A DNA stretch of 64,000 nucleotides. It comes from Protula sp. h YS-2021. Taxonomy: Eukaryota > Annelida > Polychaeta > Sabellida > Serpulidae. This document shows positions 1 to 3,930 of the stretch, piece by piece. Within the stretch, counting starts at the first letter, position 1. Each line of letters opens with the position of its first letter. The notes beneath the pieces are model-generated. The model did no database searches and was not told where the DNA came from. It saw nothing but the letters and a program-made list of their open reading frames with translations. The translations under genes were made by a program, and so were the position numbers. The stretch covers positions 64,276,329 to 64,340,328 of the forward strand of contig OX457027.1 in NCBI GenBank assembly GCA_949752745.1, in the 5' to 3' direction.

Positions 1-1
1 A

Positions 2-1315
2 CTTGTCTCCTTCATGCTTTTTCGTGAAACATTCAAAGTCTGCATAAATGACAAACGGCGCTCGCTGTTGTTTGGCTACATTCTTGAACTTGATGAAGGG
101 TTCCTTGGGAAATGATAAACGTTGTGCGCCATGCTTGCCACACACTTCACGATGCTTGTCTAAAAGATCTTGTCGCATAAACCCATGAAGACAGTTGAAA
201 CAATAAAATATTGCATTCTGACGCTTTGTTCGATAAGCCATCAGTCTGCTGAAATTCTTGATGAGGCAGTAATGTCTTGTCTTGTCATTGCTAATCAAAA
301 GCAAGTTAATTTCTCTGACGCTGTTGGCGCTGGTGTTTCGACTGAGTTGTATGGGAACAACGACATCATGTTCATATCCAAACACGTTAATGGACATATC
401 GTTCTCCTTTTCAAACTTTGGAATGTCTGTAATCGGTGTTGGAAATGTCATGTCTTCCACCTTCAATTCGTTCTCAAATAGCTTGTATTGATGCACACGC
501 TGTGGGTCATTGCTTGTTGAAGGGTGAAGGTGAGCCAATACAGACCATAAGAAGCACTTGTTGTCTTTATTCTGAATGTTTAACACCGCCTTTGTAGTCT
601 TTACTTTCTTCGGTAGTGGGATAAAACTGCTCGCTTCCAGTGGCGCTGACGTAGCTGTATGCACTTCAATGAATAATATGTTATCCAACACCCAACCAGA
701 GCCTTGTCGCTCATGTTCATCAAACCTGGTAAACAATTCTTTATAGGCTTCTGGTAAGTCCTTCTCAATATCCGTTGGATTGTATGCTGCATATGTCGGA
801 CTACTGATGAAGGCATTATCCACTTGTTCTACCATCACACCTTCAACATTTGGTGTCATTTTCTTGAAGCGTGCATGTACCACAATGTACCATTTCATGC
901 CACGGTTTAACGTTTCTAGCAAATGTCTCTTGATTCTATTCTCTTGTTGTCGCATTTCAAGTAACAAATCTGATCCATCTTCAGGCTCAAACCGTCTTTC
1001 CTGCGCGTTTTCACCAAGACTCACTCTTCTACCTCTGCCTACTTGTCCTGTCTCTTTCTTTCTTTGTTCTTCATGAGGTATGCATACATGTGTCTCAAAC
1101 GCATCCAAAGATGAAAATATCTTGACGCATTTACAGCAGAGGACTGGATCAGGTCTGTCAACACCATCTTGTAACGTCTTTTGTCTCTTGGCTTGAATCT
1201 GCTCAACAAGCTCATCATGAGCACGTTTCATCCTAGTTTTCTTACATGTGTGTGTCACGAACAATTCCAGAGATGGAAATGTCACATCACAATCATGACA
1301 GTAGACTGCTGTCAT
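2..1315 (-). CDS. Family B DNA polymerase, protein-primed Polinton/adintovirus type; N-terminal 438 codons, runs off the left edge
   Basis: The frame is open without a stop from ATG 1315 to the window edge. Seen: paired Cys/His knuckles near the N-terminus (C-x2-C then H-x-C, and C-x2-C then H-x2-C), then a third Cys-x2-Cys/His/Cys cluster just before the end. The visible part finishes with a PFVIYADFE motif, the ExoI-type 3'-5' exonuclease signature of B-family polymerases, preceded by HYCLIKNFSRL. This order is typical of polymerase genes of Maverick/Polinton and adintovirus-like elements in invertebrates. Palm and fingers motifs would lie left of the window. The gene would copy the element by protein priming. 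There are no introns, and a TATA box lies 60 nt upstream. Family call confident; exact element class is inferred. Confidence 0.85.
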   Translation of the reverse strand, partial: MTAVYCHDCDVTFPSLELFVTHTCKKTRMKRAHDELVEQIQAKRQKTLQDGVDRPDPVLCCKCVKIFSSLDAFETHVCIPHEEQRKKETGQVGRGRRVSLGENAQERRFEPEDGSDLLLEMRQQENRIKRHLLETLNRGMKWYIVVHARFKKMTPNVEGVMVEQVDNAFISSPTYAAYNPTDIEKDLPEAYKELFTRFDEHERQGSGWVLDNILFIEVHTATSAPLEASSFIPLPKKVKTTKAVLNIQNKDNKCFLWSVLAHLHPSTSNDPQRVHQYKLFENELKVEDMTFPTPITDIPKFEKENDMSINVFGYEHDVVVPIQLSRNTSANSVREINLLLISNDKTRHYCLIKNFSRLMAYRTKRQNAIFYCFNCLHGFMRQDLLDKHREVCGKHGAQRLSFPKEPFIKFKNVAKQQRAPFVIYADFECFTKKHEGDK

Positions 1316-1374
1316 CCTTGTTGTTTCTTCAACTGCTAGAACTGAAATGAAGTAAAATACACGTTTCACTCTTC

Positions 1375-1382
1375 CTTTTATA
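1375..1382 (-). promoter_or_regulatory. TATA box of the polymerase gene
   Basis: TATAAAAG on the minus strand, 60 nt before the polymerase ATG. The other two genes of this island have TATA boxes at similar distances. Confidence 0.6.
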
Positions 1383-1685
1383 CCACTTCAATGGTGTGTT
1401 AACTCAGCAGAATGTATCACTAGTTGACTAGTTGACATGTTTCACTCATGCTTTTATGCTACTTCCATGTAATCAAAATATGGTGTGTAACTTGTTTCAA
1501 AAATGTTAAAATTGCTGACTCAGCAGAATTTTACTTGTGTATATGAATGTCTCACTTACAGTTGTACAGCTGCACTGCTGCACAGCAGAGACATCTAGCG
1601 GTGAAGTCAAATGGTCTGCCAAATGGTATTCATCCGTCAAATGGTATTCATCCGCCAAATAGACCTGAAATGTGATAAAATGTAT

Positions 1686-1686
<1 letters not shown>

Positions 1687-1729
<43 letters not shown>
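1687..1729. repeat. (CT)n(CA)n microsatellite
   Basis: A short CT run followed by about 16 CA repeats, between the polymerase gene and the small Cys-rich gene. Confidence 0.95.
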
Positions 1730-1732
<3 letters not shown>

Positions 1733-1795
1733 TGTTTTGCTTCATTTCATAATATAGGATGGCCCTTAAAAGGGCTGAAAGATGTTAGTACTTCT

Positions 1796-2161
1796 TCACC
1801 AGCAAGTGGGATTTCCACAATCACACTGGTATCTGTAAAACTGCTCCATGGAGAAAGGCCTTCTCGAGCACTTGAACGGATGAAAGTTGTAATAGCCGAA
1901 GTTTTTCAGCGTCGCACCGCACCACCAGCAGTCCGTGCATGGCTCCGGTCCTGGCAATCTTGCAGTAAACTTATACCAGAGCAATCCACCACAGGTTTTG
2001 CAGCAGTAATGCCGTGGTGCGTTGTGGTGCACTGGACAGTTGTGTGGTTGACCTGGGTACTCCAACCACACCCAACACTTATAACATTCTGTCGTTAGTG
2101 TCACTACCCTGCCCTCTCGCATCACTTTCTTACTTGTCGTAGTAGCTGGTGTGTTGTCCAT
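1796..2161 (-). CDS. Small Cys/His-rich putative zinc-binding protein, 121 aa
   Basis: Intact ORF from ATG 2161. Seen: CYKC, CCKTC, CTDCWWC and CDCGNPTC clusters plus several His and many aromatic residues, so two or more zinc-ribbon-like knuckles are likely. I do not recognise the family. It has no introns, and a TATA box (2219-2226) lies 57 nt upstream of the ATG. It is on the same strand as the polymerase and divergent from the RING-like gene at 2643. Its place in the island suggests a small accessory protein of the same mobile or viral element; that is inference. Confidence 0.6.
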   Translation of the reverse strand: MDNTPATTTSKKVMREGRVVTLTTECYKCWVWLEYPGQPHNCPVHHNAPRHYCCKTCGGLLWYKFTARLPGPEPCTDCWWCGATLKNFGYYNFHPFKCSRRPFSMEQFYRYQCDCGNPTCW

Positions 2162-2218
2162 GATGTGTCTAATGATGTCTGTCTATGTCTGACGGTGTCT
2201 GAGCCTCGAGACACTACA

Positions 2219-2226
2219 CTTATATA
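2219..2226 (-). promoter_or_regulatory. TATA box of the small Cys-rich gene
   Basis: TATATAAG on the minus strand, 57 nt before ATG 2161. Confidence 0.6.
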
Positions 2227-2295
2227 CGATTTTATCATGCTGAATCAACGATTTCATCAAGCTGATTCAGCACAATTTTTTTTTTTTGCTCTCTT

Positions 2296-2525
2296 GGGGG
2301 GGGGGGGGGGGGGGTCGGTACATAGTCTGTCCCGGGGGGGGGGGTCGGTACATAGTCTGTCCCGGGGGGGGGGGTCGGTACATAGTCTGTCCCGGGGGGG
2401 GGTCGGTACATAGTCTGTCCCGGGGGGGGGGGGGGTCGGTACATAGTCTGTCCCGGGGGGGGGGGGGTCGGTACATAGTCTGTCCCGGGGGGGGGGTCGG
2501 TACATAGTCTGTCCCGGGGGGGGGG
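2296..2525. repeat. Poly-G interspersed tandem repeat, about 7 units
   Basis: Seven units of about 27-33 bp. Each is a run of 8-14 G followed by GTCGGTACATAGTCTGTCCC. The constant part is nearly unchanged; only the G-run length varies. The array lies exactly between the divergent TATA boxes of the two flanking genes. ORFs predicted through it on either strand are artefacts of the repeat. The G runs could form quadruplexes, and their exact lengths may be assembly-limited. Confidence 0.95.
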
Positions 2526-2589
2526 TTAGACGTTAACTTTTTTCCATCTTTACATCATTTTGCAATGACGTCATTTTGGTTTTCTACCC

Positions 2590-2598
2590 TATATATAT
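2590..2598 (+). promoter_or_regulatory. TATA box of the RING-like gene
   Basis: TATATATAT about 45 nt before ATG 2643. It supports that ATG over the in-frame start at 2565, which lies upstream of the TATA box. Confidence 0.55.
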
Positions 2599-2642
2599 GT
2601 GCTATCTTCACAGCTTTCCACAGTTTACCACTGCCTGCTGAC

Positions 2643-3197
2643 ATGGAAGTTCTAGCCGCGATCGACGATTCACGCATAATAAGAGAGATTAGAGAGGTGG
2701 TTGTTCAAGTAACACCACCAATCTATCCGTCTGAGAGACAGTCGTTTTTGCATCTGCTGCCGGATCCAGCTAAAGCCGCTGCGCTGTGCATTCCGATATA
2801 CTTCCATAGAGGGGCTATGATTGGGCAACGCATTAGAGACATAGAAGACGGGTGTTACAGGCAGGCCTACTTCAGATCTGCTGTTCTAGGAGAAGACATT
2901 CCATCAAAGACTGAAGAGGATGAATACCCGGCCTGGGGTCGATACTTCCTACAGGAAGACATCCAATTTTGCATTGGATGTGGGTGCATGCTGTCCCCAG
3001 ACCGGGTCATAGCAGCAGGATGTGGACATCAAACATGTCTCTTTTGCGCCTTCATCTGGACCTGCCACTCCGCGCTGAGAGACAGATATACGCTGAGATG
3101 TTTTACATGTGGTTTGACAACAGACCACTTCTTATTCAACTCTCAGCAGATGACCTCATGTGCCAGACCAGTACAACAAACAGTAGTCTTCTACTAG
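2643..3197 (+). CDS. RING-like zinc-finger protein, 184 aa
   Basis: Intronless ORF; ATG 2643 is chosen because it follows a TATA box. Seen: a C-terminal cysteine cluster, C110-x2-C113, C127-x-H129-x2-C132-x2-C135, C153-x2-C156, matching a C3HC4-type RING with one expected ligand not obvious. The first 100 residues have no motif I know. RING folds usually act as E3 ubiquitin ligases, and several large DNA viruses encode small ones. Here it diverges from the Cys-rich gene across the poly-G array, in what looks like a viral-type element. The E3 role is inferred. Confidence 0.6.
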   Translation: MEVLAAIDDSRIIREIREVVVQVTPPIYPSERQSFLHLLPDPAKAAALCIPIYFHRGAMIGQRIRDIEDGCYRQAYFRSAVLGEDIPSKTEEDEYPAWGRYFLQEDIQFCIGCGCMLSPDRVIAAGCGHQTCLFCAFIWTCHSALRDRYTLRCFTCGLTTDHFLFNSQQMTSCARPVQQTVVFY

Positions 3198-3349
3198 ACT
3201 GGAAGCAAAAAGAGTGAGAAGTTTCAACTCCAGGCTGCTCTTTTCAGAGCGGCCGCCACTTATTACAAAATAAGCAAAACAATTTATCATGGTGTTGGTA
3301 TATGTGTGTATGCATGAGAGTGTGGGAAATGGGAAAAAAAAAAGTTATC

Positions 3350-3558
3350 GTCTGTCCGTCTGTCCGTCTGACCGTCTGTCTACCATCTGCCGATTCTGCA
3401 GCAGAACCAACGTTGGTTCTGCTGCAATGCAAAACATTGGTTCTGCAGCAGAACCAAACGTTGGTTCTACCGCACTTGCGGTAGAACCAACGTTGGTTCT
3501 ACCGCAAGTGCGGTAGAACCAACGTTGGTTCTACCGCAAGTGCGGTAGAACCAACGTT
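3350..3558. repeat. GTCY run followed by an array of perfect 26-28 bp palindromes
   Basis: A (GTCY)n stretch at 3350-3380 is followed by joined palindromes at 3398-3558. The first is GCAGCAGAACCAAC and its mirror (3398-3425); later ones alternate arms GCGGTAGAACCAAC around AACGTT with GGTTCTACCGCA around a short centre. On either strand the block can fold into a chain of hairpins. It may be the outer part of the left-hand island or an independent element. Confidence 0.85.
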
Positions 3559-3930
3559 TTCATACTACTATTTAATGTTATTTGTTATTTTAATTTCTTT
3601 GTATACTTTTTTATTAATGATGTTTTTTTTAATTTAATTACTGGTTATTATTATTAACTATCTATTATATAAAAATAATTAGTTTATTTTAATTTTTATG
3701 TATATTTGTTGTTACTTTGTTAATTGCATATTTTTGTAGTTGTTAACTTTATGTTTATTATTTCTTATCAGTTTCTTTATTTAGTTGGCTACTTCAAAGA
3801 CAGACTTCTACAAAGGTTTAATGGATTGTGTTGACGCAGCAAGAGCATAAACATCACCAAAAGGCATATCCCTCTTAGTTATTTAAAATTAGAATAGATG
3901 CAATCTATCTGGGGGATTATAGTAGGTAAG
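3559..3930. other. AT-rich non-coding stretch
   Basis: Very AT-rich with T-runs and no credible ORF, splice pair or repeat boundary. Confidence 0.7.

Follow-up and report, generated by a model that had tools for sequence, protein, structure and literature searches.

A Polinton of the annelid Protula with RING-finger-like genes at both ends and two body orientations

What kind of element ends at the left edge of a 64,000-nucleotide stretch of the genome of Protula sp. h YS-2021 (contig OX457027.1; the whole stretch is called the window here), and how are its two ends built? A first-pass annotation had read window positions 1 to 3230 as the end of a Polinton/adintovirus-like element. Here we report that the region belongs to a complete virus-like mobile element of recent insertion, present in many genomic copies, of which it forms one end; both ends have a RING-finger-like gene, and the body is found in either of two orientations. 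Adintoviruses and Polintons connect transposons with adenovirus-like viruses, and how their animal members handle the host and maintain their ends is poorly known. Protein-primed replication, integration and packaging are established for this group. Throughout, numbers preceded by C are chromosomal coordinates and those preceded by L refer to genome stretches extracted for comparison. Copies with the RING-L gene to the left and the RING-R gene to the right of the element body are termed LR, and those with the reverse order relative to the body RL.

Results

The element measures 18,822 bp (C4:64261076-64279897), from L010:4747 to window position 3569. Its right end thus lies in the window, as had been proposed, and runs 339 bp further than had been drawn. 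The left terminus reads AGTAGTATGAAAACG and the right terminus is the complement, giving the end motifs AGTAGT...ACTACT. The right terminal inverted repeat (3204..3569, unstranded) ends in TACTACT and matches L010:4758-5050 at 97% identity over 293 bp, and at 98% over the last 56 bp. The extreme ends hold palindromic tandem repeats (AGAACCAACGTTGGTTCT / ACCGCAAGTGCGGT; window 3394-3558), whose number differs among copies. A target-site duplication, ATTTAA, follows at 3570..3575 (unstranded), and the same hexamer immediately precedes the left end (L010:4741-4746). The element thus has the terminal inverted repeats with AGT-type ends and the 6-bp target duplication of Polinton/Maverick elements. 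Junctions were examined in 22 copies, and both were readable in 14; all 14 showed identical, copy-specific 6-bp duplications.

The window region is one member of a repeat family in the 863-Mb genome. Among the best 40 of 5,808 candidates, full-length matches occur at 14 places (13 outside the window) at 96-100% identity, and 26 further copies match in part. Beyond these 40, the RING-L end block was seen at at least 16 more places (for example, C2:28660354, C3:9328524 and C11:14826932), so the family is larger than 40 copies. The recent insertion suspected from the open polymerase frame is supported by seven other LR copies that are 99.6-99.9% identical in the polymerase region. Within window positions 3570-64000, the element proteins have no second occurrence (tblastn, E 0.001).

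All three intronless genes that had been annotated are present. A family B DNA polymerase starts at an ATG at 1315 (1..1315, minus strand); its N-terminal 438 codons are open to the window edge, as described, and the frame continues open into L009:7643-9999, for a total of about 1,223 amino acids by coordinate arithmetic. It is followed by cys121, a 121-amino-acid Cys-rich protein encoded by an intronless open reading frame (ORF) at 1796..2161 on the minus strand, and by RING-R, which encodes 184 amino acids at 2643..3197 on the plus strand, inside a 210-amino-acid ORF that starts at 2565. Each gene has the reported TATA box, starting 67, 65 and 53 nt before the ATG of the polymerase, cys121 and RING-R, respectively, where 45-60 nt had been given; that of the polymerase gene (TATAAA) lies at 1377..1382 on the minus strand. 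Across the element, TATAWA occurs 35-80 nt upstream in 8 of 21 ORFs; mononucleotide shuffles predict 1.3, and the highest count in 1,000 of them was 6.

To the left of the window we found an integrase, a packaging ATPase, candidate protease and capsid genes, PC4 and NADAR proteins and the remainder of the polymerase. There is neither a stop-riddled polymerase nor a lack of element genes within about 20 kb, the two outcomes named earlier as counting against an element of this type. The integrase carries a C-terminal chromodomain (rve, 7.1e-11; Chromo, 6.1e-8) and the ATPase matches Adeno_IVa2 (27.4 bits) and Pox_A32 (26 bits); all four matches exceed their cut-offs, and both proteins are adintovirus features. 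All 7,992 scored candidates match the C-terminal 784 amino acids of the polymerase at E 0.001 or better, and the named relatives among the matches listed are molluscs and anthozoans. The protein keeps the conserved stretches YLDANNLYG, NNSVFGKTMEN and DTDSL, which we take to be polymerase motifs. It belongs to the protein-primed family B type of Polinton/Maverick elements, with priming itself predicted from the known family. Within the tblastn match, the frame lacks in-frame stops in 8 of 8 LR and 11 of 14 RL copies, and the ratio of non-synonymous to synonymous substitution rates (dN/dS) of its N terminus is 0.14-0.23 (14 RL comparisons). We conclude that this is very probably an intact, recently amplified adintovirus-type Polinton. 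That identity is in itself ordinary; what sets the element apart is its mirrored ends and its NADAR gene.

Both ends hold the same block in mirror image: a terminal repeat, a RING gene, G-rich 30-bp repeats and a TATA promoter repeat. The RING gene and G-rich array at the far end, like the two body orientations of the family, had escaped the first-pass annotation. In the window, the promoter repeat (2186..2285, unstranded; coordinates derived from two TATA positions) holds 22-bp repeats and the TATA box of cys121, and it recurs inverted near the other end (L010:5971-6070). The tandem array (2304..2526, plus strand) has G runs of up to 19 and the core GTCGGTACATAGT; at both ends the G-rich strand runs 5' to 3' toward the near terminus. 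In the eight LR copies read, right-end array units are nearly all of the CTGTCC type; left ends are mixed, and LR copies have 3 to 9 units by a strict pattern that misses variant units. RING-L, the paralogue of RING-R, lies at the other element end (L010:5053-5607). Both proteins share the spacing C-x2-C-x13-C-x-H-x2-C-x2-C-x17-C-x2-C, and the general C3HC4 zinc-ligand pattern of RING fingers is found in both (0 and 1 of 20,000 shuffles). At one copy on C5 the left-end block occurs twice, with a spacing of 3 kb and no change of orientation (C5:57532377-57533629 and C5:57535296-57536622), as if the end had been duplicated.

We typed left ends in 39 of 40 copies (those of C8:63.6 and C6:4.18 being partial) and right ends in 22 by tblastn; the remaining right ends came from the genome-wide window match (16 LR copies) and from the RING-L end-block search (two RL copies). 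Of the 40 copies, 24 are LR and 15 are RL, the left end of one is unread, and none has two ends of a kind. Five of 16 RL-type copies match the window up to positions 2401-2497, in or beside the G-rich array. In a left-body tree of 38 copies, which omits C4:14.8 for want of a left end and C4:75.0 because it had no usable columns, a single LR/RL change suffices (support 79/83). The same is true of the polymerase region (24 rows; support 100/100) and of RING-L (38 rows; 81/95). The RING-R tree (23 rows) needs two changes, with RL copies C7:44.8 and C1:95.6 carrying LR-type RING-R. One or two changes per tree imply that the arrangement changed rarely and that end modules also moved between lineages. 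Together, these data suggest that the body, of about 16 kb, was inverted between the ends and that ends were exchanged as well. Repeated flipping of the body was also considered and is not supported, as the left-body and polymerase trees need one change each.

Such trees would also fit an ordinary Polinton whose ends have merely drifted, with LR and RL as two lineages from one accidental inversion and one-kind copies missing through shared descent, not selection. We give this explanation slightly less than an even chance. It draws strength from the single change needed in the left-body and polymerase trees, so that the 39 typed copies stand for far fewer independent events. It sits less well with the window copy, in which identity is 97% over 293 bp in the terminal repeats and 96% over 100 bp in the promoter repeats, whereas the RING genes between them encode proteins that are 47% identical. 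The two changes in the RING-R tree mean that ends do recombine, yet one-kind copies were not seen, and RING-R is under purifying selection. Excluding pairs with fewer than 4 differences, ten full-length comparisons of the window RING-R with RL copies on more than 4 differences gave dN/dS of 0.06-0.19; outside this set, partial L033 gave 0.30, partial L039 0.14 and L047 0.88 on only 4 differences. Selection for two functions would, in our view, best explain why the RING genes differ amid repeats that agree.

A further explanation is that the two arrangements arose by exchange of ends between different element molecules rather than by inversion within one. Copies C7:44.8 and C1:95.6, which combine LR-type RING-R with an RL-type polymerase, point this way, as does synonymous divergence between LR and RL copies that varies by segment (0.02-0.04 for RING-L, 0.10-0.17 in most RING-R comparisons and 0.08-0.14 for the polymerase). 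A single crossover in opposite register would yield one-kind copies, however, and these were seen in 0 of 39, so that two exchanges per copy would be required. We regard this route as somewhat less probable than not.

How, then, could such ends arise? If the element behaves like its known relatives, the protein-primed polymerase would replicate its linear DNA from either terminus, with a coat of PC4/PUR-fold single-strand-binding proteins; the ATPase would load this DNA into a capsid that the protease matures, and the rve integrase would insert it with 6-bp duplications. The OTU-like domain of such polymerases has been proposed, in the portion of PMC11071308 covered, to detach the terminal protein. 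In the polymerase of the window element, NKDNKCFLWSV, with a candidate Cys, and HYCLIK, with a candidate His, are kept in relatives and may mark the N-terminal OTU-like domain expected of adintovirus polymerases. The mirrored blocks may represent an old long terminal repeat, with recombination keeping the flanks alike and the two RING genes staying distinct as both would be needed. Recombination between inverted repeats inside the ends, for which the promoter and array repeats would be natural substrates, could have turned the body over. We give this combination of homogenized flanks, RING genes kept distinct by need and an inverted body about an even chance. A stronger version is unlikely: an obligate RING pair, one per end of the linear genome, with the body flipped by recombination at inverted repeats (the G-rich arrays or those of the promoters) as a genome-isomer system in an integrating animal DNA virus, and with the two RING proteins working together, say as a heterodimeric ubiquitin ligase, beside an ADP-ribose-removing NADAR enzyme. 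If selection does maintain heterotypic ends, this would be an unusual mirrored terminal block, nearly identical outside the gene and different within it. A young family with many near-identical copies makes the need for a RING pair, body flipping and the role of NADAR testable in one genome.

Several observations weigh against inversion at the arrays, against two RING functions or against an intact virus-like element. The breakpoint is not seen in 3 of 16 RL-type copies, in which the match continues at 88-90% into the RING region, and in 8 of 16 the match stops at 1790 and is taken up again from 2143 onwards, at 66-73%; the array breakpoint is therefore clear only in part of the RL copies. The RING-R tree is at odds with the polymerase tree. 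No RING profile exceeds its curated cut-off (best RING models, E 0.8-7.5), so the proteins are RING-like by their Cys/His pattern and not by profile, and the predicted structure is unusable (predicted local distance difference test score, 36). dN/dS of RING-L is noisy, at 0.09-0.57 on 4-7 differences and 1.38 in partial L012. The protease resembles adenain with a score just under the Pfam cut-off (Peptidase_C5, E 3.5e-4; 20.7 against 21.3 bits), and the hexon-type capsid protein expected of an adintovirus is assigned by position only, to a 457-amino-acid ORF with no Pfam family and with chance PDB matches only. The RING frame is split at the right ends of L005, L008, L012 and L017 and has one stop at that of L019 (5 of 22 right ends), the cys121 frame is split in L018, and 3 of 14 RL copies have polymerase stops. 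Such breaks would be expected were the three ORFs a decayed fossil or captured host genes outside any functional element; at the window locus, the termini, the target duplication and a set of genes that is almost full, together with the near-identity of the LR polymerase regions, make that very improbable.

The statement that the two small genes match no known family held for cys121, and for RING-R as far as profiles go; RING-R does show the C3HC4 pattern. The RING pair had no relative at E 10 or better among 542 candidates, no NCBIfam match and three chance matches in a PDB profile search. A search of 5.8 billion proteins returned no candidate for cys121, NCBIfam gave it a single chance-level match (plantaricin, E 0.06), and neither cys121 nor the RING pair matched PHROGs. 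The cys121 protein probably binds zinc and is, like RING-R, under purifying selection (dN/dS 0.10-0.19 in 4 within-family comparisons with 4 or more differences). In eight RL copies (L014-L017, L019 and L021-L023) it is matched over 26-29 residues only; in L014 and L015, whose ORFs were read, a different frame of about 93 amino acids with the same MDNTPA start replaces it. An older degraded element beside the young copy C5:88.0 (L058:2311-3376) holds a cys121 relative that is 82% identical with one stop, as well as a RING-like fragment of a third kind; the pairing of cys121 with a RING-like gene is therefore older than the family of the window element.

Discussion

The window element shares with adintoviruses (PMC11071296, in part) an rve integrase with a C-terminal chromodomain, a family B polymerase, a packaging ATPase and a PC4/MoSub1-like (MOSUB) protein; its candidate protease would match the adenain-like protease of that group. 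We had considered its PC4-like proteins as new to the group and rejected this, as two viral structure matches are named MOSUB from adintoviruses. The main text of that paper contains neither NADAR nor PC4, and has 'ring' once in an unrelated sense; the passages covered do not describe mirrored RING ends. Vertebrate Mavericks, in the portion of PMC8097293 covered, likewise have (AGT)2//(ACT)2 end motifs, 6-bp target duplications, intronless ORFs and accessory regions flanking a core, and span 12.7-24.6 kb, a range that includes the window element. Unlike them, it has paralogous RING-like genes and G-rich arrays at both ends; module orientation differs between host species in vertebrate Mavericks, whereas here copies differ within one genome. 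NADAR, PC4, RING and ubiquitin do not occur in the text of that paper.

The NADAR-domain gene (L010:8990-9427) matches PF08719 at 5.4e-18 (66.2 bits; cut-off 35.1) and TIGR02464 in NCBIfam at 3e-17, yet under that model's own cut-off. NADAR enzymes undo guanine ADP-ribosylation (PMC11543638, in part) and are found in several animal-infecting viruses, including bivalve picornaviruses (PMC9503650, in part), which makes countering an ADP-ribose-based defence the likeliest role by analogy. Viral NADAR proteins are stand-alone domains, as here; in the portion of PMC9503650 covered, they are listed for phages, for giant viruses, for iridoviruses of insects, for ascoviruses and for some RNA viruses, and the text of that paper has no occurrence of polinton, adintovir or maverick. 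Among the literature matches listed, with supplements and subscription papers outside the scope, no publication joined Polintons or adintoviruses with NADAR or PC4, and we do not claim absence from print. The RING proteins, the Cys-rich protein and NADAR are all probably directed at the host, where they would transfer ubiquitin, bind in a zinc-dependent way and strip ADP-ribose marks, respectively.

In IMG/VR, polymerase and polymerase-motif pattern searches found no relative, nor did searches with the capsid candidate and RING; a search with the polymerase alignment recovered two relatives at 43% identity. RING, Cys-rich, NADAR, PC4 and capsid proteins had no tblastn match at E 0.01 in these two. 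A metagenomic relative encodes a 245-amino-acid Cys-rich protein (L064:13397-14134) near its polymerase and integrase, with a weak match to the TRIM66 B-box (E 0.005, below cut-off).

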